DNA from: Pezizomycotina sp. ARF18 | Taxonomy: Eukaryota > Ascomycota | Direction of reading: 5' to 3' | NCBI GenBank assembly: GCA_002224055.1 | Contig: AZLU01000119.1 | Location: 60,823 to 124,822 of the forward strand | Length of the DNA stretch: 64,000 bases | Part shown: piece after piece, positions 4,829 to 64,000 of the stretch | How the letters are laid out: each line of letters starts with the position of its first letter | Numbering within the stretch: the first letter of the stretch is position 1 | The notes under the pieces: generated by a model | Database searches by the model: none | The model's input: only the letters and a program-made list of their open reading frames with translations | What the model was told of the DNA's origin: nothing | Made by a program: the position numbers and the translations under genes

Positions 4829-6826
4829 TCAGCGATACACGACACCATTATGTGGATCCATGGCCTCGCTCTTTGCAGCCATCGTGAGTCTTAAAGCTTC
4901 GTTCCCTATAAGGGTCTTTTCCAAGTCCGCCTTTTCTGAAGGAACCGGTTTTACGGTAAACGTGGCCTCCGGAGTCGTCTTAGCCCGTCTTTGCCCTCCG
5001 AAATGATTTCCGTCACAGTGCTTAAGCCAGCATCGGACTGGTACGTCGATCTAGAAAAGGCTCCGATAACACCATACTTGATCCTCTGTTTGCCCGTCGC
5101 GGCTACGATTTCGCTGCCGGTGAGGTTACTGCAAGGGATGTTCTGAAGTACCGGGGCGTCGAACGCTTTTGCGATCTCGAAAGGCGACAAGCTAACTGGC
5201 CGACCGACTTTGCTCCAGCTGCAGAGAGTAGCAAAGACGACAGGCACGGGCGCCAGCAGCAAAAACATCGACGCCATGAGGTAGCGCCAGTCCGCCTGGT
5301 AAGTTGCCTGATACGGTTGTCGTTGCATACGAACAGTCTGGTTAGGAGCAGTCAACGTCAGGTTCAGAGGTGCGTTCGGGTCTTCCACGCCGAGGAAGTC
5401 AACAAGGTTATACCACTGCTCACGCGATCAGTATCGTTCGGCATGTCCCTAAATGCGTAACGAAGAGATAGCTGGTTCAGGAATAGTATTGCGTCGACCA
5501 TTGGGTCAGAGAACTGCACGTCACGAGTACTTCCTTTGTTGCCTGCCAGTGAAAACTGATCGAGATATGCTACGGCATTTGCGGAAATATCGAGGTTTTC
5601 GAGGCTATCCGAGTCGCTGTTGGCATTGAACGAAGCGACTCCTTGAAAACTCCTTTGCACAGCCTGGTAAAAGCCGCCTAACACGACTTCCGAGAGCGTT
5701 TCGTTTGACATAAACTCCACAGGCTGAGTAGTACTTTGGTCATTAACGGTGATAGTCTGATTGAAAATTGTAACATCCAAACCGATGTAAGCTGGTCTAA
5801 GGTAACAGTATTGAGACCACATAATAGGGTCTGTGCTATTATCTCTCACATGTGACGTCAAAAGCAAACCCATAGGCTGTTTCGCGTCACCTGCGGAGCC
5901 GAAAAACTCGACATCGAACTGGTAGAGAAACCGCATGTCGTTTTTCGGATATCTTGTACTTCTTGCTTTGGGGGTAACTTTGCCTTATTTCGGGGCTCTG
6001 CGGTATTTGATTTTTGGTGAACTCGATCGCTGCGTTGGTAATCGGGACGTTGTCGGAGGTAAAGTTCCTCCCCATATACAGTCCTGATTGAAACCAGCGA
6101 CAGTTATTGTGGTGTTACACACGCCATTGCAGGCGTCCTCCGGTGCCAAGTTAATTGGGCGGTAATGTTCCGATCTTACAACAGCGGTATTGAACTCAGC
6201 TGGTACGGCGTGGTTTTATTGTAATAAAAACCGTCGTCCTCGTCGTGCATGACCGCCTGCACAGTCATATTCCACAAGGGGCGAATGTGTATAGGTAGAG
6301 TTCGCGTAATACTGTCGTATTTCAAAGTCGTCGGCTGGAACGCTTTCTGAAGTAGCGGTCCGCTCAATGAAAGCATACTAGTGGTGATACTCGCCCAGCG
6401 GATTATCGAAAAGGAGCTCGTGGTGGTAGAGAAAGGTGTCACGACACTAGTCGCGAAGAGGTACTCGTCGTTCAACGCTTGGACTGTGGACCCGCGCAAG
6501 CGTTGGACCACCACTGAAGGGTTGACGCATTTCCGAAGGCGAACCGGATGCACCAACCCCCAACCGTTGCTATCGCGGAGATAATAACCGTTGGGTTGAT
6601 CCTATGGCCGTTCCACGACTCGACGGTAGTCCCGTCAACCATTCCCAAGAGAAGTAACGCTGCCATAACAGCAACGAAAATGTTGGCGCCAAGTGCTAAC
6701 ATACTGAGCCAGGGGATATTATAGAAGAATCCTGCTTTCCATTTCCTCTCGACCAGCAGTGGATCTCTAGCTTCGGTGGGCTGTTTCCGTGATTTCCATC
6801 AAGGTTTGCGCCTGGTACGGGTCCAT
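4829..6826 (-). CDS. DUF3176-like fungal membrane protein, disrupted paralogue of the gene at 30.2 kb
   Basis: Read downwards, a start at 6826 (MDPYQAQTLMEITET) is followed in a new frame by PLLVERKWKAGFFYNIPWLS and a hydrophobic helix. A second helix contains VGGWCIRFAFGNASTLQWW. Then come LNDEYLFATSVVTPFSTTTS, a third helix (SIIRWASITTSMLSLSGPLL), a long hydrophilic region with several N-x-S/T sites, and a last helix before FATLCSWSKVGRPVSLSPFE. The tail probably ends at 4829. Helix, lumenal domain and tail match the gene at 30.2-32.2 kb block by block, so the two are paralogues. The architecture resembles DUF3176 proteins, fungal membrane proteins without a known reaction. At least five frame changes are needed (about 6780, 6500, 6130, 5940, 5390). 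Decay and assembly indels both remain possible. Confidence 0.7.
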
Positions 6827-24360: not shown

Positions 24361-26118
24361 GGACAAAGGGACCGGAGTTTCCGCAGGAACTCCCGTCAAG
24401 CAGGAACAACTCCTTTTCCTTCTCGCTTCTGGGCCTGCATACACTGAAGATCAGCAGTAAGAAGGGTTGCAGTATAACCTTACCCCATTACCTACTTTTT
24501 CCTTCTTCTCTTTGTTCGATTTGATACCCCCTCATACATGAGATATACCAACCACCAGATTATTACTTCTTTATTACTAACATCCTTTCTATGTGTATCG
24601 ATATTTCTATTATTCGGTGGTCTTCGTCGATGCCTTTTCATTTTCGTTCTACTTTTCCTTTTTTTCATTCAGTTGTTGTTCCAATCCTTTCTTTCTTTTA
24701 GTAGTGGTTCTTCTATATAGCAATAGCCTTTCCTTTTCCATCGCTCATTTTCCATCGTTCTTTTGTTGTTGTTTTTCTTTGTAACTGTCTTTCTTTGCAT
24801 CTACCTAATCTTTCTTTGATCACTATAGGCAATAGCTCCTACTTCATTTCTCTTTTTCCGGTTCTTTCTTTCTTTCTTCTTTCTTTCTTTCTTTTCATTT
24901 CTTCTCTTAGTCTCTCATATTCTATTCTCTACACTACTATATCTATTAGTCTATATATCCTAGTTCGTTAATCCAGTACTTGTTATATAAATATCCAATC
25001 ATAACCGTCCATCACCTCCCATCCAAGATACATCGGTGCGCTATTATCATCTTTTGATATACACCTCCACGATTTATTATAATCGATCAAATCAAGCGAA
25101 AACACACGCACACTGCCCGTTTCATCTCCACATTTCGAACAGCTATTATATGATAAAAGACATTCTTTTTCGCTTTTTTGGAGTTGGATTTAGCCTGTAG
25201 CAAGTGGAATCCCATATTAGGTATCCCAGTTTTTTTTTAGGATTAAAAGAGAACAACAGTAAGTGCTCTCAAACGCTACAAAAACAAAGGGTATATAAAC
25301 AACCAATCCGTTTTCCCTCCACAACCATGCTCAGAAACGTGAGTCCTGAAAGCACCGTGAGACAAATACCAACCCAACAAGAAGAAACAAGAAACACGCC
25401 GCCTGAATTGGAAGGACAAAGAAGTTAGGTAAGATTCTTTATTAAACGAAAAGAGGGAAAAATGAGAAGAGAAGAATATGAATTGAAATTCAAAGAAACA
25501 AGAGCTGCTTACAACGTTTCTCCCTTATTGTCTACATTTATTCTCTTTGGTTTTTTCTATTTTTCTTACTAGTTATCTCTTATTTTCTTATCCTACCTTT
25601 ATCGCTGTCTTGGCAGTTTTTGTTTATCTTTTCTTTTTTTCTTTTTCTTTTCTCTTTTTTTCTCTTTTTTCTTTGCTTTTTCTCATTTTCTCATTTTTTT
25701 CCTCTTGTGTTGTTTTGCTGCCTTTTTCCTTTTTCCTTTTTCCTTTTTTCCTTTTCTTTTTTCCGCCTTTCCTTTCCTTTTTTCTTTTCTTTTTCCTTTT
25801 CTTTTTTTTCTTTTCCTTTCCATTTCTTCTTTTCAATTTCTCCTTTTAAGAAAATTCTCTCCTTCCTCTTTTTTCCTTTCCTTTCCCTTCCACTCTTTTC
25901 TCTTTATCCATTCTTTTTCTCCTTTCCCTCCTTCCACGCATTCTATTCTTTTCCTTTCCTTTCCTTTCCTTGAAGAGTTTTGGTTTCTGTTTTCTACAAC
26001 GATCACGTCTTTTGTCTATATCATCATCATCATCTCTCTTCTTTCGTCTCGTTTGAAGAGTCGTGATCTATCTCAGAGCCTCATCTATATCCATTGAAGC
26101 TCCTACTAACCATACTGA
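24358..26118 (+). promoter_or_regulatory. Long pyrimidine-rich leader/promoter region
   Basis: From about 24480 to 24960, and even more strongly from 25535 to 25980, the plus strand is almost free of purines: runs of T and C such as CTTTTTCCTTTTTCC repeated for over 400 bases. This region precedes the C2H2 gene at 26119. CT-rich promoters and leaders are common before well-expressed fungal genes, but this length is unusual. ORFs inside it encode only Phe, Ser, Leu and Pro and are not genes. No other feature is seen between. Confidence 0.6.
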
Positions 26119-27310
26119 ATGCGGTCGAGCAGCCACAGCAACAGCTTCACCGCCATGAACCACACTCCACAACGCCGGGCACGCCCCGCGACCTATCTCA
26201 CCCTCAACCTTACAACGCCACCTCTTCCTCTTCCTCCCTCCGCTACAACCTCGCCCTCCCGCTACTCCTCCGCCGACATCACCAACTCCGCCGCCTCGTC
26301 GTCCTACAACGTCGTCTCGCAGCAATACGCCTGCGAGGACTGCCGCTCCGAATTCGCAACCTACCCGGACCTCCGCCACCACATCCAGTCGCGCGAGTGC
26401 CTCCGCGCAAAAGCCGGCCGCTGGCTCTGCTCCATCTGCCGCAAAGATTACTCCTCGAAAGGGAATTTGCAGAGGCACCAGGACAACATTCACGGCGTCA
26501 CTGATCCGGATATCGATAACGCTGAGATCGACGGCGGTGGCGATGGCGGAGGGGACGGTGACAGGCAGAGTACGGCGAGCGCGGTTAGTGTCCGCGCTAA
26601 TAAGAGGAAGAGGAGGAACAGCGAAGACGACGGGACGAAGAAGAGGAGGAGAGGGTTATAGGGAGGATAGCGTGCTGCTTGGCACGCCGCCGCCGACGAG
26701 CGCTACCGCGAAAAAGAACGAACCTGAGGAAGACGAAATGGAAGACGACGAGGAGGAGGAAGCTGATACGATCCGCGTCAACGGCAACAGCGCCGCCGGG
26801 AGTGGGCTGCGATCCACCGCTACCGAAGCATTGCAAACGCAAAACGAAAATGAAGAAAGGGAAGCGAGCGTGCAACAACAGCAGCAACTAGCGGAGCAGT
26901 TGATAACGACGATAACGATAGCATCACGGACCTGATATTCGGCGGATCGCGAACAACAACGGCAATAGCCCTAGCAGGAATAATAACAATAACAACGACG
27001 ATGCTAGTAGCGGTATTATCCCAGCGGTCCAGCATCGACCATCGCCGCAGCAGCAGCAAGTTACGCAGCAGCAGCAGCAGCAGCAGCAGGCGGCGGTACC
27101 GGTGCTCACGCAGCAGCTGATGCATTTGGGCAGGAGAATAGGACGCTGAAGTTCAGGCTCGAAAATGCGCTTAGGGAGATCGTGGCGCTGAAGGAGGATA
27201 GAAGAGGGTCGCGCTGGACAACAAAGAGGCTTAAACTGAACAACCAGGTGTCTGCTGCAGATGTTAACGAGTATGCGAAGGTTCAGGACGGGTATAGAAA
27301 GTTCAGGTGA
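26119..27310 (+). CDS. C2H2 transcription-factor-like protein with polyQ and C-terminal coiled coil
   Basis: The first ATG at 26119 gives MRSSSHSNSFTAMNHTPQRR; the in-frame ATG at 26155 is an alternative start. Two adjacent fingers follow a Ser/Thr-rich opening: CEDCRSEFATYPDLRHHIQS and CSICRKDYSSKGNLQRHQDN followed by IH, the second being classical. A basic stretch (ANKRKRRNSEDDGTKKRRRG) looks like a nuclear localisation signal. In shifted frames come an acidic stretch (EPEEDEMEDDEEEEADTIRV), Asn- and Gln-rich segments with a polyQ run, and a helical end (ENRTLKFRLENALREIVALK) with the stop at 27310. Three or four frame slips are needed (about 26660, 26920, 27110). This architecture fits a sequence-specific transcription regulator that dimerises through its tail; targets are unknown. 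Confidence 0.7.
27028..27098 (+). repeat. CAG-type trinucleotide repeat (polyQ coding)
   Basis: CAGCAGCAGCAA, ACGCAG and then eight CAG units in a row encode a Gln-rich segment of the C2H2 protein. Such runs change length readily, so the exact copy number here may not be reliable. Confidence 0.85.
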
Positions 27311-30172: not shown

Positions 30173-32231
30173 ATGGCATTCCTAAGTCCCTTACAAAACA
30201 GCGGAGAAGGGTGCCCTGGAAAAATCCCAGAATGAGCAGCCAGCGACCTAGCGCTCGTCAGACCTTAGAAAGGAATGGCGCGCTGGATTCACCCATAATA
30301 TTCCATGGATTAGTCTATTAGCACTTGGCACTAATATATTAGTCGCAATCGCTACCGTATATCTTTTCTTGAATAAGGTTAAAGGTAGCACAGCAGAGCA
30401 TTGGGACAACCGTATATTTAGCTTTCCTCCATCGGTTTTCTTTACTGTGCTGATGAATGTGGGTGGCTGGTGCATTCGATTTGCTTTTGGCAATGCCGCG
30501 ACGGTTCAGTGGTGGGCAAACGCTCTGAGAGGATCCACAATACGAACTCTGGATGACGAATACTCCTTTTCGACGAAAGTGCTGGCCCCTTTCTCGACTA
30601 CTACTAGTTCATTTTCAATAATCCGCTGGGCAAGCATGGCAACTACTCTCTTTTCTGTAAGCCTTCCACTGTTACAAGGGGCCTTTCGACTTGAAACTAT
30701 CCTTTCGGTGGATTCCTACAATGCCACTCTGCCAATTTCCATCCGGCCCATGTGGAATCTTACCATCCACCATGACGACAAAACATTTCTCTACGATAAA
30801 ACCTCGCCATTTCAACCCGAATTCAACGAAGTTGTTACCTTATCAAATTATTGGCAACCAATCGACCTAGGCGCAATCGACTGTTGGGGATATTGTCTCA
30901 CGACAATAACTATTGCAGGATTTGATCTAGACTGCCACAACGAAACATATTATAGTTCTGGAAAAGACGATGTTCGAATTACCAATGCAGCGATAGATCT
31001 ACTCGAAGGCCGAACGCCCCAGAATAACAGGCAGAAGTTTATGCCGGGAGATGATCATTTTAATGCACAGTCTCCACTATACGCGGAATTACAGGGTGCT
31101 CTAAACAGTGGGACCAGCCTTTATACCAGTTTGACGTGGAATTTTTCAACTTGCGCAACCGAACAGCACAAGCACAAGCATTGCCCTGATATTACATTGG
31201 ATACAAAATGCCAAAGCAACACAATATTCTCTCAGTACTGTTATCTTCGCCCCGCTTTTATCAATATGGAGTTGCAGGTTTATAATACCACGGCTATCGT
31301 CTCAGAACCAAAACTTGATCCCGATTTAAGAAAAATAGATTGGTGGAACATATGCCTGAAGAACAATCTCCGATGTAGTGTTAGCGGTTTCTTCCAGGCC
31401 TTGCAAAGCGCCTTCAACGGCGCTGCCTCCTTGTCTCAAATTTCCGACTCAGCGCCGAGTAACGCCACAAGCAACCTTCAGATTTCCGCAAATGCGGTAC
31501 CATATGTCGAACCAACTTCAATATCTCCCGACGCCGAGGATCGCATCTTCTTCTCAGATCCAATGGTTCTCGCGTTGACATATCTGGATCAACTCTGTCT
31601 CCGCTATGCGATGCAACAGATACCTAACGACACAGCCCGCGTAGAACAATGGAGAGCCCTGGCTAAGGATCTCGGAGCACAAGACCCAGACGCCCCGCTA
31701 GCCTTTAAAACACGCCCCGGGCCTTTTCAAAAAGTCAAAATGCTTAGATCACAGTACTCTTTGGCATACATAGTAAAGTATAGATACTTTGCAGTTGCAA
31801 TGCTATTTATTCTTTTGCCTATTCCAATCGTCTTCGCCACACTCTGCAGCTGGAGTAAAGTCGGCCGACCCGTTAGTCTATCTCCGTTCGAAATCGCCAA
31901 AGCGTTCGATGCTCCGGCGCTGAAGCGCGTCCCTTACAGCAATATTATAAGAAAGGAGATCGTCGCCATGGTGGGCGAAAGGACAATTAAATATGGCGTT
32001 CCGCCACACAGACCGCTGCGCACACTTAACTCGGGTAGCGAGGACACATTAACAATCGCTGTATCAGACATCAGCAAAGCGACTTACGTGGAAGGTGTCG
32101 ATGTGGAGGCGAAAAATCATGAAAATGAGATGCAACAGCTTATGATGACGGAGGAAGAAAATGTTGAAGGGCCAAAAATCATGTCGTGTATCGCTGAAGG
32201 ATGCTCACGTTGCCTCTTTTGTATTAAATAG
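30173..32231 (+). CDS. DUF3176-like fungal membrane protein
   Basis: A single frame is open from about 30252 to the stop at 32231 and reads DLRKEWRAGFTHNIPWISLL from the start of its first membrane helix. The proposed start at 30173 (MAFLSPLQNS) lies in another frame and needs one slip or a tiny intron. Helix 1 is LALGTNILVAIATVYLFL. Helix 2 contains VGGWCIRFAFGNAATVQWW. Helix 3 is in IIRWASMATTLFSVSLPLL. A hydrophilic domain of about 340 residues follows, with many N-x-S/T sites and about ten Cys. The last helix is YFAVAMLFILLPIPIVFATL and the cytosolic tail is rich in charged residues with a Cys-rich end. Three helices, lumenal domain, one helix and the conserved SPFEIAKAFDAP after it fit the DUF3176 layout. 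The function of that family is not established. The disrupted copy at 4.8-6.8 kb is its paralogue. Confidence 0.75.
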
Positions 32232-46500: not shown

Positions 46501-47040
46501 GCTGATTTTTCCCGATGACATTTCTCACGGAAGATTAAAAGGCTAAGAGTTGTCTCCGCCCTTTACAGTAAAGATATTCCATTAGCTCTGTGTGAAATCG
46601 GTTCAGTGGTGAAGCTCTAGCGAACTCGGCGCTTGCAGATCTGGGAGGCCTTGAGGGGCAGGCAGGAGAATCAATTCATCAAATCACTATTATCATCCAC
46701 GCGGATACTTCTTTTTTTTTTTTTTTTTTTTTTTTCTTCTTTGCTGACAGCCATTCCTTAAGGAAACACCAAGAAATATAATGCCAAGCTGCAGTTGAAA
46801 ACGAAAAAAAAAAAAAAAAAAAAGAAATCGTGAATAAAATTCCTAGCAAACAAAGAGAAGCCACCAAGACCTTAATCAATGCTAAGATACCAACCTAATT
46901 TTAACGCATCAGCTAAGATCCCTCGGAGAAAATTGAATAAGTACACCGAGGCCATTAATGACATATGCTGGTCTGTTCATGCAGTATTCTCCTTTCTTCT
47001 GTCTACATTATACGTAGAATCTCCAAACGCCAAACGTTGT
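43564..47040. other. Gene-poor intergenic region
   Basis: About 3.5 kb show no recognisable gene. On the minus strand between 45971 and 45505 two adjoining ORFs give a hydrophobic segment followed by a Cys-containing peptide, which could be a decayed secreted protein, but no family motif is seen. T and A runs occur near 45971-45986, 46711-46735 and 46804-46823. Confidence 0.5.
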
Positions 47041-50000
47041 CGGATAGCAAAGCAGGTTCAAGTCTCATCACCCCGATAGAGATGCGTATGCCTCGCAGGA
47101 AACACTCGATCAGAAACATCAATACTTCAAGGATACATCAATCACCGCAGCAACATAATTATTGATTGACCTTTGTGCAATTATTCCATCCCTCCATCCT
47201 TCCGATATGAATGGGTAGCAAGTCTCAGCGGGATGGCAAGAACCTGAAAAGCCATAGATATAAAATGCAAATGGCTCTAAGTTGCGTAAGCGGCCGTGGT
47301 CTCACGCACTCCCAAATTCCTCCTAAATAACTCTGAAAGTTAAAAAAAAAAACGATGTTGGAAAAGAAGGGCGATAGAAAAGAGCGAAATGACATTCAAG
47401 GCTATAAATTGAGTGCGGTACGAAAAAGTAGGAGTCAGAAAATCGGAACCTTCCGGCGACGACAAGAGGAAGCGATATCCCTTAAGTCACCACGACGAGA
47501 ATGAAGATTCTGAGGTGTTTAAGTTTCTGCTAATTGAACCGCACTGCGCTAGGGGCCGTGAACCCCCCATACGTTAAAAAGGCGTCGATGGAAGTGTAGG
47601 AGACTCCAGAATCGTCCGTGCGGCGGGATGCAGAGGTAGAACCAGTGGCATGCCAGTCACCAAATTCCCGCACATCTATACCAAAAAGCTACACAGGATA
47701 TTAATCTTGCAGAGATTAAAAAACGAAAACAAAAGCCACACGTAACATAATACCTACAATCATTTTATCTGTCAGTCTCTTTTTCCTTTCTTATATATGG
47801 AGGGACAAAACAGTCAGGCTTATAAGAGAAACCAAATCGCTGCGCAAGATCGATAGAAAGAATTGTAGGCCGCGAAAACAGCTAAACTACCTCATAAAGG
47901 GGCAAAAAACTTTTGCGAGAACCAAACCTCCTCATGCTCATCCACAATAATACGTAAATCTCCCAGGAGGTTATCTTTTGGCCAAGAACCCGAAATTTAT
48001 ACATTTAGACGAGAAAGGTTACTAAAGACAAAGAGGCCCTAAAAAATAAAAATGGAAAGAAGAAAAAACGAAAGATAGAAGCGCCGCATGCTAAGTTTTG
48101 CACTCTTTTTATTAAATCGACAGCCGAGACAATTCTCACAATATGTTTCATGCCGGCGAGAAACAATAATAAGTAAAAGTCAGCCAAAAAAAGACCGGCG
48201 GGGAAGAATGCAATACAATCCATGTACTCCCTATAATAAATAATTGTATCGTTAAAAGTAATGCCAGAGTACCTTCCCAGCTTGGCGTATTCTTTCGCGG
48301 GCTGCGCTCAAAATCTCCATGGCGGCTGCAGCAGGCATGATAGCAAGGACACATCGCGCTCGACGAGACAAGCAAGATAACTTCAGTCAGGGAAAACCCT
48401 ACCCGATACTGGAACATGTAGCTAGAACCTTACTCTAAAGAACGCATCCGCTCTGCCGTATAGAGCTACACATGTAGCTTTTATGGCTGGTATCAGGGAG
48501 ACTTATAAAAGCACCTGTAGTCTTAGCAGCAACCGGCTAATGCCGGAAGTGCGTAGCAAAGAACTCTTCACGCTTCAGCCAACAATGTCAGTTAAATCGC
48601 AGTAGCTAGTAGGAGTCAATCCTCAAAGACTCGAACTGAATCAGAGGGAAGTAAAAAGGAATTCGCACGCGCTCTGGATTAAAAGTCGTCAACGCTGCCA
48701 AATCGCCAGATGGAGGTTACTTTTACCACTGAACCGTGAATGGCCGATAAGAGCGGCTTTAAATCCTAAATTACCATCTTGCCTGATTGACAGATTAGTA
48801 TTAAGTCTCACACTTCATGCATTGGTAGTAACGTGAGATAATTCCAGTGAACAGCAGAACAACCATCGCCGGTGAAGTAGGAGCGTAGTCATATACTTCT
48901 GCCCTACTCCCGAACACTGTATAAGTGTTTTTCCGCGAGCTTCACTACATCGAAGCTGCACACGTAAGTTATACCACAGGTTCCTGAAGACTTTCGATAA
49001 TAGCCTCTTGTAGAATGTAGACATCAGTCATGCGAGAAGTATAGCAAAGAAACCCTTCACGATTTCAGGCAGCGGCGGCGTACGGAACATAGCTCCAGTG
49101 ACCGAGCGGCAGGCAAAATCGCAAGATAAGTTGCCGAACGCATATTCTACAAGGCGTATTGAAGCAACTGAACGAATCTCGTATAAAAATCGCCAGTCTA
49201 TATTCGAAAACAAGTAATAGAAGTAAAGTTATCAGGTCGAACATCGCCGGACGATGACAGCACTAATCTTAGGCGTGGATACGAGCTGGTCGATAGCAAA
49301 GACCTCTTCACGATTCAGGCTGTGGGGCTAGATAGAACACAGTAAATAGCTGGAATAAACGCCGACAGTGGAATGTGAACAGGATCACATCCCAGAACCT
49401 CCCAGCTTTAGATAATTTTCTTTCGTAGGCTACTCACTCACATAAAGTCAAGCCAGTAATTTCACTCACGAGCACCAGCAGGAGTTAACAACGTCACCTA
49501 TAATCTACTCTATGAGGCAGCAGTGACGATGGCGAAGAACTATCCAAGCATCCAAATTCTCATAAAAGCATCATCCAGAACCCAAAAGCCGATTCTCGCA
49601 CATCTACGCTTCAGCCAGGAGCAGCAAGTGGATAGATGCACGGTAAACAGCAGGAAGGAGCCGAGAAGGTAATGCGTGATATTAGGTAGTGATTTTCCGT
49701 ACCTACCTCCACACAAATTATAGAGATCTTTTTGCAACCTCAACCGAATGCAGCAACACGGGTAACCTTACCTTTGGGGCGATAGTTGTTATCGGTAGTA
49801 GTAAATTAATATTAGGAAAGACGCGTAAATTACGCTTGGTAATACAGCAAAGAACTCTCCGTGATCCAAGTACGCATCTAAGATAATTCCAGTAAGCATA
49901 GGGAACACTACAATGGCAAAATGTTACTGTATAGAGAAAGTATTTCTTCCCGTAACTCTCTCGTAATTGCAAATCTTCATCATGTTGGATCGATAGATAG

Positions 50001-53000
50001 GCCGACACAGATAAGTCCCTTACGGCCGACAGAGGTACTGATACCAGCACGTCCAGAATCTAAGCGTGAATCTCACCACGTTTGAAAGCCCGAGTATTTC
50101 CTACTAGCACTCCAGGCGTTAAGCAGCAGGTAAGATAGATGCAAACCAAAAGAGTAGAACAATACCCCACCGAATCAACCTGAACCAGCACATCACGCAA
50201 CCATTCCAAATAGTGTGAACGTTCTCAATTGGATATAGAAATTACAAGAGTAATTTCACCCAAGGGGCACCGCCAATGATCGATTAACAGCATGGTCTCG
50301 TCCGCATCCCGTAGGTTCGATAGCAAAGAACTCTTTACGCGTCTAAGTAAGCACCCAAGATATATCACAGTAATCGGGCTGGAACAATACCCACAGAATA
50401 GGACCCTTACCATATTTCGGTCGCTCTCTGGGTGCAGCATAAAGCCTTCTGCCGTATCGTCGGAGGCACATAAGCATCTTTACGCACGATTGGCAGGAAA
50501 AGCTGAAGAGACCATCAGAACACAATTCATTCATCGCACAAATATGATAGTAACGAAACATTTTCACTTCTGCCAGGGCTTATAAGATAATTCCAGTAAG
50601 CTGTAAGCACAAAATGCCACCGAGTGATCAGACAAACCATATGTCACACCTCTCCACACTTTCGAAAAAAAAAGCTTTCTTTTTTAAACTAGCCTGTATT
50701 ACCACAGCTAGTGTGTGCGGATCCTTTTTACCCGAGGTATCAGTCAACGGCCCCATAACAACGGTCTCTGACTCCAAATCACAACCATGGGGCCGAGTGA
50801 TAGCAAGACAGTCTTCGCGTTTTAGAGGAGAAAGCGAGATAATTGAAGTAAACAGTAGGAACAAACGCCCACCGCATGAACCAGACGGACCTTCACTACA
50901 TCCTTTAACGATAATACAAAGATCTCCGGTGAGTTTACTGCGTATAGCTACACTGATAGTTCCACCCACCGCCGTCAACCAGAGATCGAAAATATGGCCT
51001 ATAATCTTAACTTAAGGTCCTCCCACGATAGCAAAGAACCCCCCCCCCCCCCACGCTTTAACGCGCAGCATAAGATAGTTCCATTAAAAAGAGCGGGAAC
51101 ACATTACCGCCGGGCGAAGAGTACCCCGATGATATTAAGTCATCCGAACTCAGTATAAGATAGCTTCGGCCGCATACCGGTATCCCAGGATAACTTTACC
51201 TACAGAGTCTGTAGGAGACCAACAACAGCATAATCCTTACTAGCAGCAGCGACGTGGCCCCATAGCAAGGAAACTCCTGCCACGCTTCAGCCAGCCATAG
51301 CCATGTCATAATTCTAGTGAACAAATGAACAGCATTCCACGGATATAAATATTTTCGGTGCCTCATTAAACATCCCATAAATGAGCTCGGCAAGCATTGG
51401 TAAATAAGGCTTACTGGAGTTGAAAATTTATGAAAAATACGGGTCCAACTCCATAGCAGCGCCCTTAGAGAACCCAAGATCGAAATGAAGCAATCGGTAG
51501 ATAGCAAGGAACGCATTCATCTAGACTCTGTCGGCGTTAAGATAGTAGACAGCACCAGGAAAGAACCAAACACACGAAGTCAATATTATACCGAACGATA
51601 TTTCGGTGCTTCTGCCAACTTCGAAACTACTTACCTTCCGGAGAAAGTGCACCGCACGCGAAACATCAGAACTTTTAGACTTACGGAAAGAAAGCGAAGA
51701 AAGCAATGATAACAAACGTCCTTCGAAAATTAAAACATTGCCCCCAGCACGTTTGATAGCAAAAAACCTCCACGCTTCAAGGAACGATATGCAAACGAAT
51801 CATAATTCCAGAAAAACAGCGAGAACTAATCCGGAGAACTAAACAATACTGAGCAAAAAACATTCCCGGCACCGACGATCTCGCATAAACCGTACTCGCC
51901 GAAGCACGACAAGCACTTTTCCACTACGACTAGTACAGAATATAGCAGCAACACCGCACCCTGTAATCTCCAGCAAACAAGTAGTTAAGTTAACAAAAAT
52001 ACAGCCGGATAGCAAGAAGCCCCTTTATGCTTTCGGTGCTAATATAAGAGAGATCACCTTTACAAACGGAAGATACCGAACGGTATTTACAGTAAGTCGC
52101 AGACCGGGCGAACCCTCTCCCGTATAAGACTTCGTGAGTAAACTTTCCATCCAAAGACTGAGTTCGGTCGATACTAGCGTCTCTGGGGAGAGCTAAGGCA
52201 CAATGACGCGAACGGATTAATGCAAGAAAAACCCGCCTCAATCAAAACAATAGCATAAGACAGTTACGCAGGACGAGCTTGAATAAGACAGAGATGGACG
52301 ATATTAAAAAAAAAAAAATTTTTTTTTTCAGTGTATCCGCGAACCCCGATAGAATATCTCCAAAGAGTGTCCATGCAGTGACATAAAACACCCTTTACCA
52401 CTCACTGGAGAAACGCCAATAGCGGTGCTGTGTAGTATTAAAACCCGCAACCAAAATAAAAGCATAGCAGAGAAAACTACCTGCACACCATGCAACTATT
52501 TTCGATGATCTTAGCATCTTTGCGGAAATTGCGCGGCGTAGCAATACACACTCTTTTACCACGGTCATCAAGGAAACGCCGATAGTGCATTTGTATAATC
52601 TAACTCACGACCGCGCCGATGGACCATAGCAAAGAACGCCATCGCACCACGCGACTTTGCAAGATAATTTCAGTCAAAACAGCTGGAAACCATCTGCATG
52701 ATATTGAACAATATATCCACCACCTCTACAAGCTCCCCATATAATCGCCAAATCGAAGACTCGTACCACACATACAAATACATAACCATCTCGACCCACA
52801 GGTTTGCTTCGGCAAATCGATAAACAGCACCTCCAACCTTAGGAACGACGACCTCGGCACGATAGCAAAGATCCTTCACGATCCTACCAGGCAAAGAATA
52901 AATTTTCTAGTAATCAACGGGAAAAAAAGCAGTGCTTGGGGCTGTCCTATACTGAACAACACTTCCCAGTCCTTCAACTGCTTCAGCATAAACCCCTTTC

Positions 53001-53380
53001 CGCTATGACGCGTTGCTGGCAGTACACGGAGCAACTTTTCACCACGAGGAGCACTTAAACCATCCATAAAAAAAAAAAAAAAAAAAAACTACTTTATGTC
53101 AAAGCGAACGGCCCTCTGAAGGAACTATAGCAAGAGCCTTTCACGAAACCTCGATAGTACACATCACCAGCGAAAATATCACACGGATCCATAAGATCTC
53201 GAACAATATTTTCTCAGTATGCCAACGATCTCAGTATAAAAAAATCCTCTAACGAGCCGCGGGAGATGTATAAGATTCTTTTACCAATCCCACCCAAACA
53301 ACATAACAGGCGTCCCTTGAAATCCTCATCGCATGTCGGCGGGTGTCATAGCAAGAACATTCCCCCCCCTAGTGAATTCT
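47041..53380 (+). repeat. Strongly diverged tandem array, period about 240 bases
   Basis: A core beginning GATAGCAAAGAACTCTTCAC and, about 20-25 bases later, a second block TAAGATAATTCCAGTAA recur in register. Recognisable heads lie at 48339, 48553, 49039, 49292, 49528, 49843, 50319, 50546, 50799, 51027, 51261, 51500, 51755, 52008, 52625, 52861, 53126 and 53347. Successive distances are mostly 214-265 bases; 476 and 486 fit two units with an unreadable copy between. The second block is clearest at about 48833, 49882, 50584, 50840, 51071, 51308, 51800 and 52660. The rest of each unit is poorly conserved. Weak heads at 47043 and 47371 suggest the array starts near 47 kb. No protein frame runs through it. 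The clear part is 48.3-53.4 kb. Confidence 0.75.
52306..52328. repeat. A13/T10 symmetric homopolymer pair
   Basis: A run of 13 A followed directly by 10 T can form a perfect hairpin. It sits inside the 240-base array at the place where the array's regular spacing is lost (52008 to 52625). Confidence 0.8.
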
Positions 53381-54219
53381 GTGCAGAACCGATAACAGCG
53401 TCTTCAACAATCGAGTCGACAAAAGGCTACAAGAAGAAGTCATAAAAAAGCGGCCTCAGACGACCTGCGATAGCAGCGCGCTCAGTAAAGCAAGTAAAAT
53501 ACCGAATTTCAGGAACACATCTGATAAGAAATGCTTGATATTTAGTAAACCTCGTACAAAGAATCCTTTGACGCACACTTATAAAAAAAAAGAGAGAAAA
53601 AATGTTACGGAAAGGAAAGGAAATAGAGGATATTTATCGAAAAAGATTAGAAGAGATGGAAATTTGTATTTATAAAAGAACCATCCAGTAAAAAGAAAAT
53701 ATAATGCTTTGATTACGAATTCCGCTCGCCTTGTGGTTTCTTGTTTCTTCGTTGTTTTTTTTTTTTTTTTTTTCCGCCTTTGCTAATGTAACTATCTTTT
53801 TGTCAAAGGGGAAAAAGAAATGCTGTAATATTAGAGGTGTAACATGAAAAAGTAGAAAAAGTAGAAAAAAAAATAAAAACCGTGATCCCAAATAGCTAAT
53901 AGTAGAAAAAAAAAAAAAAAAAAAACACGAATATAATATCCCTAAGAAACCCATTTTAGAAGAGAAAAAAAAAAAGAAAAAAGTAAAAACTCCATGATTT
54001 CAGGTGACCCTATTCGTAGATAAAAACCACCCAAGTAGCATCGAGTTTATAAAAAACCAAACCCTAGAGCATAGAGTCAGGATCACCGACATTGCCGCGC
54101 CTGGCGCCGAACCGTACCCGTGAACGACAGACTGGCGGAAGGGATCCTGGCGGCCCGCAGCTGCTCGCGACCCTATCTGTACTGCAAGCTGGGGCGGCCA
54201 CCGTGGTCGAACTCGGGGT
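53381..54219. other. A-rich intergenic region downstream of CDK1
   Basis: This stretch lies between the array and the CDK1 stop. It has many A runs on the plus strand (53581-53605, 53850-53880, 53906-53925, 53964-53985) and a T run at 53756-53774. It probably contains the CDK1 3' untranslated region. No gene is seen. Confidence 0.6.
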
Positions 54220-55419
54220 CTAGAAGTACTCGTGGTGGGCGGCCTGCTTGGCGGAGATGCGGGAGGCCGGGTCGTAGACCAACATAGCCTGCCAAAAAGG
54301 TCCATTAGTTTTCGATCTTGTTTTTTTTTAACACCTTTAGAAGAGAAGGATTGAAAGAGGGGTTTTTTTGTACCTCGAGCAGCTCAAGTCCAGCAGGATC
54401 GAGCCCGGGAACCTGCTCCTCCAGGTCGTGCCTGCCCCACTGCGGGAACGAGCTCTTGAAATCGGGGGGAGGAAACGCCCGGCCATGTGTTCTCGTCGGG
54501 GGTTCCGAGGATACTGTTTCAAAGAACAAAGACGTTAGCGCCAAGAAACTTGCAAATAAACAAGAAAACAAAGACAAAAAAGCGCGTAGTCACGTGAACA
54601 GAGGTTCGAAGGGAGCTCACCGGAAAATCTTGAAAATCTCGTCGATTTCAGAGTCGCCGGGGAACAAGGGCTTCCTGGTGACCATTTCGGCGAAGATGCA
54701 TCCGACGGACCACATGTCGACTCCAGTGGAGTACTGCCTGCTGCCAAGGAGGATTTCGGGGGAGCGGTACCACAACGTGACAACCTAGAAGAGAAAGCTT
54801 GTTAGCAAGTAGAACAAGATCGCGAAGGGTTTAAGGGCTTCACCTCGTGGGTATAAGTGCGCAACGGAACACCGAAAGCCCTAGCGAGCCCGAAATCCGC
54901 CAGCTTGAGGTTCCCTCCTTATCGATCAAAAGGTTCTGGGGTTTGAGGTCGCGGTGGAGGATCCTGTGCGAGTGGCAGTACCTGACGCCGTCGACCAGCT
55001 GGCTCATGAACCTCTTAACCATATCTTCACCGAGGGGCATGCCGGCTGGGACTGACTCCATGTACTTCTTCAGGTCCATGTCCAGGAACTCGAAGACGAG
55101 GTAGAGCTTGTGGCCGTCGGCGTGGACGATGTTGAACAGCTTGACGATGTTCGGGTCGGCCATCTCCTTGAGCAGGGAGATCTCGCGGATGGCGGTGCTG
55201 GGGACGCCTTCATCTTCGGCTTCCAGGCGGATCTTTTTGAGCGCAACTATGCGGTTCGAGTGGCGGAGGTCGAGGGCCTTGTAGACAACACCGTAAGTGC
55301 CTGCGAGGAGACGGAGGTTGGTGTGTTAGCTAGCTGTTGAGGGAGATTGATGTTTCTGACCAGGTACGTAACCTCCAACCTACCTTCACCGATCTTCTCG
55401 ATCTTCTTGTAGTTTCCAT
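54220..55419 (-). CDS. cdc2: Cyclin-dependent kinase 1 (Cdc2/Cdc28 type)
   Basis: Five exons: 55419-55384, 55300-54844, 54784-54621, 54513-54374 and 54288-54220, all with GT..AG introns of 59-107 bases. The product is about 288 residues. The Gly-rich loop is [11 protein letters not shown] with the inhibitory Thr/Tyr pair. The ATP Lys is in [10 protein letters not shown], and the cyclin-binding helix is an exact PSTAIRE ([16 protein letters not shown]). The catalytic loop is [12 protein letters not shown], then [10 protein letters not shown], the activation segment [16 protein letters not shown] and the distal [10 protein letters not shown]. The protein drives G1/S and G2/M entry with cyclins. 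Three one-base errors interrupt it: an A missing after the ATG (the Asn codon at 55413), an A missing in the Asn codon before LKLADFG (about 54914), and an extra C in a six-C run (about 54465). In an essential gene these should be sequence errors. Confidence 0.95.
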
Positions 55420-60452: not shown

Positions 60453-63400
60453 ATGTCGTGGCACGCCTCCCTCCCTGCCCACGCGCCGACCGTGGTCTGC
60501 CAGAAACACGACCTTTGTTAGGGATCCTGAGAAGATACAATACGTCGCCGAATCTGAAAGGAGGAGGGAATTCACCGCTTTAATACGACAGTAAATACGC
60601 TCTCCCCCTGTCTTACTTTTATCCTCTCCCTTCTGTTTGTGGGTAGCTGATCCTCGATTTTCCACTGTTTCTTCGTCGCAGGTACATCCACCAGATCCTC
60701 CACGGATGCCAGCGGGACTACTGCGACACGCCGACGTGCTGGACGGCCAGGAGCGGCGGAAATCGTGCAGGGAGTTCACGCCATTATCGCCAGGGTTATC
60801 GCGACGCAACTCGCGACGGCAGACGATTCCTTACAGGGCTCTGTTGCCCCGGAGTTCCGGCCGCGATAGTGGGAAGTTGGTGGGGGATAAAGTCGACAGG
60901 GGATTAAAAGACCACAAGAGCTTCACGCAGCAGCTCTTCGACACCGTACCGCTGCGGAAGCTGGAGTGGTTGGGGTTACCGCTGCCGTCGGATATACTTA
61001 TTCCCGCCGGAGGGGAAAGCGGCGGATGGAGATAAAGAGGAGGACGAGGATGAAGAGGAGAAGGAGGAGAAAGGGTGGACGACGGAGTTGGGATCGCCGG
61101 GATTATCGATCGAGACGATAACGCCGCTTCCGCCGCCGCAGAGTAATGTTGTCACGTGTCCATGTCTTATACCGCCCGGTCCGCACACGCACACGCGCAG
61201 CACAGCCAGCAGTTTTCCGCGTACTTTACGACGCCGCACCAGTCGCCCCCTCCGCGGATACGGAAATTCAACAGGCAGAAATCCTATAACAACAGCAACG
61301 ACGGCAAAGAATCTACGACATCACAGAGTACCCGTTCACACATCATCGCACCCGAAATCCGCTCCGCCACTACCGTCGAGGGGAGCTATAACTACACCCA
61401 GTAACACCCACAATATGCCGCCTCCGCCGCCGCCTCCCCGTCACCACCACCATAACAACGCGCACCACATGCACAGGACGCAGAGCACGCCGTCGAAGGT
61501 ACACGCCCCCAATGGCGGCAGCGTAGCCTCGCCGGCGTCGACGGTTGGGGATACGTATACTATACCTCCGCAGTCCGTCACGCACTTCACGGCGGATATA
61601 GTAAGAGCCCTCGCGAAGATGTGTGATGACAATCGTCCGCGCGCGGGGAATCGAACGGGTTCGTGAGGCAGAGTATTTGGTACGTCTTTACTACGCGGAC
61701 GCGATCGATGCTTCATTCGTGCTGCAAGGAACGGCGAGGGATGAGATATTTAATGCGCACCCGTCGGATGTCGACGCTGCACTACGAGTGTTTATGGAGA
61801 AAGGGTGGAGCAGGGACGTTTTTCACGCGCTGTGGAAGGCCGTTGGGGAATTATTCCCAAGGTTGTAGCGAAGACCGTTAAACCCTCCCCGCTATCAGAA
61901 AAAGTCGCAGCGAAAGTCGTTATAATAGCTCTACACGCGCTCGCTGCTTCGCTACGGAAATCGTCGCCGGAGTTTGGGAGGAGACGAGGAGGGTTAGGTC
62001 GCTGGGTCAGGTTTCGAACAAGATACTCATCGAAGACGAGCTAGCCATGAGGCTAACATGCAGGCTCGTTAGGGCGCTGGCGTCGTACAGGCTTTTTAAC
62101 CCCGGGATAATGGCACATTTACGACATTACTTTTCTTTCTGCGGCGTGGTATCGGAGACGGAGAGAGTGGTAAACTGAGTAAAGAGCTAGGACGGGAGTT
62201 AGGAGCTGAAGTCGCCGCGTCAAGAATCGGAAGGGGTGGTTGGGGATTGGCGGTGTGCACGCTGGAGTGGGCGCGCGGCGCTTTGCTAGCGGAATGGGAC
62301 GGAGAAGAACGTCTGAAGAAGGGCAGCGTAGCGGAAGGCGCCAGTACTACTCATGAAATTCCTCTTCGACAACCACGAACCGTTCGGCCTCGACCCGCTA
62401 TACTTCCAAAACCCAGTACTCGCGGATAGACTCGACGCCAAAGACGTCCCCGTGGAGTGGTACCTCTCGAAATCGAATCCGTAGCGTCGTCGCATTTACT
62501 AGACCACCCGTACTTATTCCCACCGTCGGCACTCGTTACGTTCTTCCGGAGCATAAACTTCCACATAATGTCCTACGCGTACGATCTCGCCTTGTCGAAT
62601 AATAGGTTTTATTCACCAGATTTCTAACACGGTCGAGCTGCAGAAGTACCTTACGGATAGTCTGTATAAGCGCTCGAAGTATCCATGACGATGTATTTAC
62701 TGCTCGAAGTACCCGCGAGACGATCGTGCGGGACGCGCTGGACCAGATCGTCGGACGACAATTACGGAGTGCTCGAGACCGCTAAAAGTGCGCTTTTTAG
62801 ACGTCGGCGAGGAGGGAGTAGATCACGGCGGCGTGCAGCAGGAGTTCTTTCGTGCTTTGGGCGGAAGTATTAAAAGCCGAATACGGTATTTTTATTACGG
62901 ACCCCGGGACGCGGATGAGCTGGTTCGCGATAGCAGGTTAGACCGCTACATAAAATCGAATGTTGGGTATTTTAGCGTCGCTGGCGGTGTACAACGCCGT
63001 CACACTACCGATTTCCTTCCGGTGGCGTTTTACAGGAAGTTATTAGGATATCCGTAACCGACATCGAAACACATTGAAGACGGCTGGCCGGAGCTCGCGC
63101 GCGGTCTGAGGGCTATGCTTAAAGTGGGACGAAACCGACGGCGACGTAGCCGACGTATTCGTCCGCGGGTACGAATTCTCTTACGAAGTGGGGAAAAGGT
63201 GGAACGTCGACATGCTCAGGACGAAAGGGAGGATCCGTGGTCACCACCGACTATCGAGAGGACGCACGTTCACGTTGTCCATTCGGCATGAGAAAAAGAA
63301 GGGGATGATGGTGGTTCGTGTCCGCAGTTACCGGAGGATATAGTCTACTTTAGCGATGACGGCAGCGAGGTTGGGAGGGGACGGTTGGGGATTGATATTG

Positions 63401-64000
63401 CGCGGTTCGACGCCGGAACGGGAAGGGGAGGAGGAAGAGGAGATTGTGACGCGTTTAAAGTACACGAGGATCCCGATGCGGCGGAGGATAGGTCGTGGGA
63501 GGACGTTTCGAGGGAGGTTGTTGGTGGTGGGATATTAGCGGAGAAAGATGCGCTGGTGAGAGTCCTGAAGAAGCGCTAAGAGTAGAAGGAGGGAAGGTGA
63601 AGAGCAAGAGCGGAGATAGTCAGTAATGAAACCCGACGGCGGTTCGTTAGCGATTACATATTCTGGCTCACGGATAAGAGCGTGCGGAGGCAGTTCGAGG
63701 CGTTCGAGAGGGTTTAGATCTTGTTTGGATGCGAAGGCGCTTTCGGTATGCAAACAATATCCTCCTTTCTCCTACTATTCTTCTTTTCCTTTCTATATTC
63801 TGTGTGCTAACTAATCTTTCATAGCTCTTCACCCCCACCTCCCTCCAACGCCTCATCGAAGGCTCTCGCGACATCGACGTCTCAGCGCTCGAAGCAGCAG
63901 CCCGCTACGACGACGGTTACTCCCCTCTCACGCCTAATACGCGACTTCTGGTCCGTAGTACGCTCCTTCGGCCCCGAACGCAAGCGGCAGTTACTCGAAT
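60453..64000 (+). CDS. HECT-type E3 ubiquitin ligase, UBE3A-like with AZUL finger, C-terminus outside window
   Basis: The start reads MSWHASLPAHAPTVVCQKHD and leads, after a slip near 60520, into KIQYVAESERRREFTALIRQ. Intron 1 is 60591-60680. Exon 2 opens with YIHQILHGCQRDYCDTPTCW, the Cys pattern of the AZUL zinc finger at the N-terminus of UBE3A-like ligases. A Pro/His/Ser-rich insert covers about 61100-61590. Then follow helical blocks (AEYLVRLYYADAIDASFVLQ, LFNPGIMAHLRHYF, KFLFDNHEPFGLDPLYFQNP, INFHIMSYAYDLAL). The HECT N-lobe begins VRFLDVGEEGVDHGGVQQEF at about 62784. YIFWLTDKSVRRQF lies near 63656-63695 and an intron at 63746-63824. The window ends inside IRDFWSVVRSFGPERKRQLL, so the catalytic Cys lies beyond it. 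More than a dozen frame slips occur. The enzyme would transfer ubiquitin from an E2 to its substrates through that Cys. Confidence 0.85.

Follow-up and report, generated by a model that had tools for sequence, protein, structure and literature searches.

A strongly diverged tandem array of ~238 bp units with a conserved core in Pezizomycotina sp. ARF18, a candidate set of repeated protein-binding sites

Introduction

Two described systems come closest to the locus reported here. The human long noncoding RNA NORAD, a decoy for Pumilio, contains 12 units of ~300 nt that are at least 100 million years old; no stretch is identical across all human repeats, and each unit retains a small conserved core (PMC4947167). 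The DXZ4/Dxz4 macrosatellite is built of units of 3-6 kb, whose within-species divergence is <1% in primates and >5% in mouse, and conservation between human and mouse is reported to be restricted to the region of the CTCF site (PMC3491370).

Here we describe a head-to-tail array of ~238 bp units with a conserved core in the genome of Pezizomycotina sp. ARF18. It lies in a stretch of 64,000 nucleotides (the window; positions 60823-124822 of contig AZLU01000119.1, hereafter C119), to which all coordinates refer. The array resembles NORAD in that its tandem units are old and combine a conserved core with a diverged remainder. However, Pumilio sites are lacking: the motif TGTANATA occurs 0 times on the + strand and once on the - strand, so that the array is not NORAD itself and could at most work like it. 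Moreover, whereas the units of NORAD contain conserved stem-loops, none were found here, the organism is a different one, and we claim no sequence homology. With DXZ4/Dxz4 it shares the tandem arrangement and the confinement of conservation to a short element, which in that system is bound by CTCF and conserved between species, but its ~238 bp units are almost unalignable, whereas the 3-6 kb units of Dxz4 are fairly alike within a species (PMC3491370). Like satellites and minisatellites, it is made of head-to-tail units at one locus; unlike them, it shows no trace of homogenisation, as units 1-12 positions apart are no less similar the farther apart they lie, and Tandem Repeats Finder does not list it. 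A literature search at the level of records returned no report of such an array in a fungus.

Results

Extent of the array and evidence for the repeat

An initial sequence-only reading of the window had proposed an unrecognised, noncoding tandem array of ~240 bp units beginning at 47,041. The array is real but shorter than first described:

48327..53560, + strand: whole array, ~22 head-to-tail units (nhmmer 48327-53487; 19 places at E < 0.01 by cmsearch; right end 53560 from unit spacing)
47001..48326, no strand: A-rich stretch outside the array, without recognisable units by profile and lag counts (A 0.34-0.36, T 0.21-0.23)
48332..48551, + strand: first recognisable unit (E 3.9e-21, 48330-48532)
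48812..49012, + strand: untrained unit with an eroded core (profile E 7.2e-6)
49287..49522, + strand: best-scoring unit, the example of a full unit (E 6.4e-33)
49846..49932, + strand: untrained unit (profile E 2.2e-8)
50127..50270, + strand: strongly eroded unit, core almost gone (profile E 0.0051; below the inclusion threshold of iterated nhmmer)
50546..50689, + strand: untrained unit with an altered core (profile E 6.9e-8; below the inclusion threshold of iterated nhmmer)
52223..52577, + strand: two degenerate units, one apparently shortened (E 0.5 and 4.7), placed by spacing

A profile built from sequence only and trained on 15 units gave 22 places at E values up to 10 and 19 at E < 0.01, every one on the + strand and within 48,338-53,524. 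Since the training units had been anchored by eye on the core, the independent evidence consists of four untrained copies that the profile recovered, at 49,846, 50,546, 48,812 and 50,127, together with the leave-one-out tests given below. When the window was reversed, iterated nhmmer found a best match of only E 4.5. As cut, 21 units measure 220-278 bp and one measures 139 bp. The right end of the array falls at ~53.49 kb by profile (nhmmer limit 53,487) and at 53.56 kb by spacing. On the left, the copy at 47,041 scored at chance (E 8-18), so that the start proposed there was given up in favour of a limit at ~48.33 kb.

The periodicity is also apparent from word counts. Shared 7-mers exceeded first-order shuffles at lags of 220-260, 460-500 and 700-720 bp, that is, in peaks at about one, two and three times 240 bp (z = 9.2, 7.3 and 7.3 in the three best 20-bp bins); in the flank from 43 to 48.3 kb the same test gave no overall excess. 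The longest in-register chain of the core word ATAGCAA had 13 members; 200 shuffles never produced one of more than 5, and elsewhere in the window the longest have 4-5. Tandem Repeats Finder listed nothing in the array region, in agreement with its description as unrecognised.

Anatomy of the unit and conservation of its core

Three elements, illustrated by the following copies, recur at defined places of the unit:

49293..49312, + strand: Box A, the core, ATAGCAA followed by an RRA...TTCACG-like stretch; opens the unit
49879..49895, + strand: Box B, TAAGATAATTCCAGTAA, of the AAGATA...CAGTAA type; ~37 bp past the core start
48721..48726, + strand: Box E, a CTTT(T)ACC-like T-run; recurs at about +135 to +180 of the unit

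The best-conserved words sit in the first ~65 bp. ATAGCAA is exact in 14 of the 22 units, and with at most one mismatch it is found in 18/20, where 15 shuffles reached a maximum of 9 (word counts, folding phases and leave-one-out tests were run on 20 units, without the two most eroded ones, near 50,095 and 52,485). At the same tolerance the Box B words AAGATAG and CAGTAAA each occur in 11/20 units, as does GAACAAA at about +60, with shuffles giving at most 9 for each. Past +70 the boxes become faint. Beyond the first 62 bp, CTTTT was counted 10 times against 3.0 expected and TTACC 12 times against 3.5, and a run of three or more T at +135 to +180 is present in 17 of 22 units, the highest count among the 15 bands tried (four or more T: 8/22). 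Within the core of one unit lies a run of 14 C (51039-51052), possibly a product of slippage.

In leave-one-out tests, the core module (-6 to +70) led to recognition of 16 of the 20 units, the misses being those at 49,526, 50,548 (the unit 50546..50689, whose core module alone fails), 52,248 and 53,348. The part from +72 onwards sufficed for 7/20, as compared with 1/20 once it had been shuffled in all units. The earlier statement that the rest of each unit is nearly unrelated is therefore too strong in view of these matches and of the recurrent T-run, and the suggestion that only the core was copied is not the simplest reading, as weak homology continues past it.

The core is slower-evolving than the rest of the unit: in uniform-rate star-tree simulations set to match how far the non-core part has diverged (8 runs per setting), no 7-mer was shared by more than 7 of the 22 units, as against the 14/22 observed. 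This upholds the earlier argument that such a core is not what plain decay would leave behind. Its retention is most simply attributed to selection, with a mutational cold spot or local conversion as alternatives.

Similarity between units is independent of the distance separating them (mean z 1.84-2.83 at lags 1-12; 0.76-3.47 at lags above 12, with fewer than 10 pairs per lag). Since it is flat with distance, the history of the copies is star-like: a single old amplification, followed by independent drift, with no sign of recent homogenisation. At conserved columns, transitions account for 251 of 468 changes, as expected from true descent. Judging from divergence alone, the array is probably of great age.

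Search for further copies

As far as searched, the array occupies one locus. In the 46.36 Mb genome (408 contigs), a BLAST search with the array matched only the array itself, in a search that scores only the best candidates. Pattern searches of the genome returned matches at about the level of the controls: 7 against 4 in the reversed control for Box A with up to three mismatches (3 in the array), 9 against 14 for the gapped A-to-B pattern (4 in the array) and 16 against 13 for Box B with up to two mismatches (4 in the array). The matches outside the array are single, and nine of them (4 Box A, 5 gapped A-to-B), inspected with 1.5-3 kb of surrounding sequence, revealed no array (best E 0.029). 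Nor was a unit found in 140,730 bases of other sequence, made up of the remainder of contig C119 and of rDNA contig C189 (best E 4). The latter contig carries three full 5.8S matches, of which two successive ones lie 10.87 kb from each other, as well as a low-scoring fourth that does not reach the cut-off; by eye, the rDNA spacer resembles that of ascomycetes.

Coding and RNA tests

The earlier description of the array as noncoding was correct: the lengths of most units are not divisible by three, indels occur inside the core itself, and the longest stop-free stretch has 153 codons. In a Pfam search of 7 of the ~33 stop-free stretches of at least 60 codons in the array, nothing exceeded its cut-off, the best scores being 17.1 bits for Nnf1 (cut-off 23.7) and 13.8 for DUF4718 (cut-off 27).

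Rfam gave 0 matches at gathering score in the whole window, and the 11 matches obtained at E up to 5 between 46,000 and 54,300 all fell in homopolymer flanks (46,654-46,836 and 53,676-53,837), none of them in the array. No tRNA was found. RNAalifold predicted 0 pairs from two alignments, both of them poor; folding z scores for 20 units in 13 phases on both strands had means of -0.67 to +0.40 (standard error near 0.22), and six units taken singly folded much like their shuffles (z -1.45 to +1.52). On the - strand, there may be a slight tendency to fold around +100 to +120. Small structured RNA units, one of the functions first suggested, thus receive no support. Polymerase III boxes, searched with consensus sequences, were absent from the + strand (A box 0, B box 0), while the - strand of 48330-53560 had 8 A boxes against 2.8 expected (sd 1.9) and 1 B box against 1.0.

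Composition, strand skew and motifs

The GC content of the array (0.44) is like that of its flanks, and no AT enrichment was seen. A RIP-like signature is absent, with a TA/AT ratio of 1.00 and a CpA index of 1.04, as compared with 0.82-0.98 and 0.96-1.24 in five other stretches. A exceeds T throughout the array, and C exceeds G in its right two thirds; the five 5-kb segments with the highest AT skew on contig C119 are those over the array (0.22-0.23; sd of segments 0.08). As A also exceeds T in the non-repeat stretch from 47.0 to 48.3 kb, the skew is more than the composition of the unit, and it hints, if only modestly, that some directional process, for instance transcription of one strand or the other, acts here. 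Directional mutation bias is not supported as its cause, since changes at conserved columns show no matching bias: G>A (40/278) and C>T (66/417) are similar, and A>G (84/785) is below T>C (61/355).

Next to the array lies a protein-coding neighbour:

54840..55325, - strand: protein kinase exon with a PSTAIRE-like helix (Pfam Pkinase E 3.5e-33)

By eye, the kinase is Cdc2/CDK1-like and its gene appears to bear introns. The gene runs leftwards, towards the array, and transcription might therefore read through into it in the - direction. On either side of the array region are long homopolymer tracts of T and A (46708-46825 and 53750-53925).

The core word and nine protein-binding motifs were counted in the array. 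ATAGCAA occurs 14 times on the + strand and 0 times on the - strand; however, confinement of a motif to one strand is automatic in any tandem array and by itself lends no support to an RNA. Among the motifs the GATA-type consensus HGATAR stood out, being found 38 times on the + strand (11.2 expected) and twice on the - strand (7.9 expected), with 25 of the 56 GATA words on the + strand located within Boxes A and B. Once the first 62 bp are set aside, GATA leads all 4-mers (31 against 15.9, z = 4.1); among six control stretches, the leading 4-mer had z = 3.1-4.1 in five cases and 7.6 in the sixth. The GATA of Box A is variable at its G, and TAGCAA is nearly invariant. These counts are compatible with a platform for GATA factors, which we do not claim. 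None of the RNA-binding motifs tried stands out in the array, the best being the Nrd1-type GTAR on the + strand (56 against 39.5, sd 6.2).

Discussion

A small asymmetric core repeated ~20 times with loose spacing, in units whose remainder drifts and which share no fold, is the pattern expected of repeated protein-binding sites, and such sites are the best fit among the three functions suggested by the sequence-only reading. From this pattern we infer a function for the array, with the candidate site read either as RNA or as DNA; the ordinary explanations of the array are excluded in part.

Tentatively, and well short of confidence, we favour a long noncoding RNA with repeated protein-binding cores, NORAD-like in build and unrelated to NORAD. 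A long, weakly structured, A-rich noncoding RNA would be read through the array, and its repeated cores would load a protein in many copies, as NORAD does with Pumilio. The motif would then be held by purifying selection as a repeated putative binding site, and the array would act by displaying this site many times over on a single molecule. The strand skew, together with the close similarity in build to NORAD, inclines us towards RNA rather than DNA. Against an RNA stand the stem-loops that NORAD units conserve and that were not found here, the fact that no RNA-binding motif among those tried is conspicuous, as well as the possibility that the skew could have been inherited from the ancestral unit or could stem from transcription in the - direction. 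A more specific version, in which a lineage-specific lncRNA of NORAD architecture, with ~22 ancient units each carrying an unstructured putative site of the ATAGCAA type, lies directly downstream of the Cdc2-like kinase gene and would titrate or assemble a candidate bound protein, appears unlikely.

A DNA platform, in which the core would be a site for a DNA-binding protein repeated ~20 times and the array an insulator, an anchor or a regulatory cluster between the kinase gene and the gene-poor region, is a possible reading too, though we consider it rather unlikely. The short conserved core, the drifting spacers, their flexible spacing and the failure to find a shared RNA fold would all suit it, and Dxz4, whose human-mouse conservation is reported to be confined to the CTCF-site region, provides a precedent (PMC3491370). 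However, no recognised binding site was matched, and the strand skew is not predicted by it. DNA-bound factors usually accept either orientation, whereas HGATAR is in excess on the + strand and depleted on the - strand; moreover, away from Boxes A and B the excess of GATA is comparable to that of the leading words in control stretches, and the G is variable in Box A.

It is unlikely, but by no means negligible, that the array is a neutral relic, a decaying old satellite-like amplification in which a mutational cold spot or local gene conversion kept the core. Loss of the core in several units, as seen in the leave-one-out misses, would be natural for such a relic, as would the single locus and the lack of coding content or of any known RNA, and the flatness of similarity with lag fits a single old amplification. 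Nevertheless, uniform-rate simulations at matched divergence did not reproduce the core, neither a RIP-like signature nor AT enrichment is present, and most units, in spite of very high divergence, have stayed in register and retained the additional box at +135 to +180. If the array were a neutral relic, it would be a clear example of a satellite that has aged without homogenisation.

Tandem small RNA genes, one per unit, each ~150-180 nt long and terminating at the recurrent T-run, are improbable. The size of the units, their common strand and the position of the T-run, at the top of the 15 bands tried, are compatible with such genes; but a polymerase III stop needs a run of four or more T, which only 8 of 22 units possess, the + strand has neither A nor B box by consensus, Rfam returned nothing in the array even at E up to 5, and neither a tRNA nor a shared fold was found. 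Even less probable is a centromere or heterochromatin satellite, as had also been proposed: a diverged tandem array within a gene-poor stretch could be one, but this array spans 5.2 kb only, at a single locus by the searches made, with a GC content like that of its flanks, no RIP-like signature and a kinase gene adjoining it. A decayed gene for a tandem-repeat protein, to which the unit length (240 bp = 80 residues) might point, is hardly credible given unit lengths that are mostly not multiples of three, indels within the core, stop-free stretches of at most 153 codons and the lack of Pfam scores above cut-off in the 7 of ~33 stretches searched.

Functional arrays that have diverged beyond the reach of ordinary repeat finders are easily missed, and the present array escapes Tandem Repeats Finder, Rfam and Pfam alike. 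Should its core be under selection, the locus would offer ~20 natural variants of one binding site within a single genome. These would help to identify the bound protein and to ask whether multivalent RNA platforms of the NORAD type arose in fungi as well. To our knowledge, such platforms are known only from animals.

Other features of the window

Several further observations concern the remainder of the window. Two ORFs, at 5364-5936 (- strand) and 30369-32231 (+ strand), share stretches by eye (e.g. LRYA...PNDT), as if they belonged to one membrane or secreted protein family, and neither gave a Pfam family at E up to 0.001. The region 60600-63600 (+ strand) resembles a HECT-type ubiquitin ligase by eye, with no Pfam family in the two stretches scanned. 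Degenerate TTTTC/TTCC repeats make up a tract of 230 bp, rich in T and C, at 25617-25847, and an ORF with a C2H2 zinc finger is found at 26119-26661 (+ strand).
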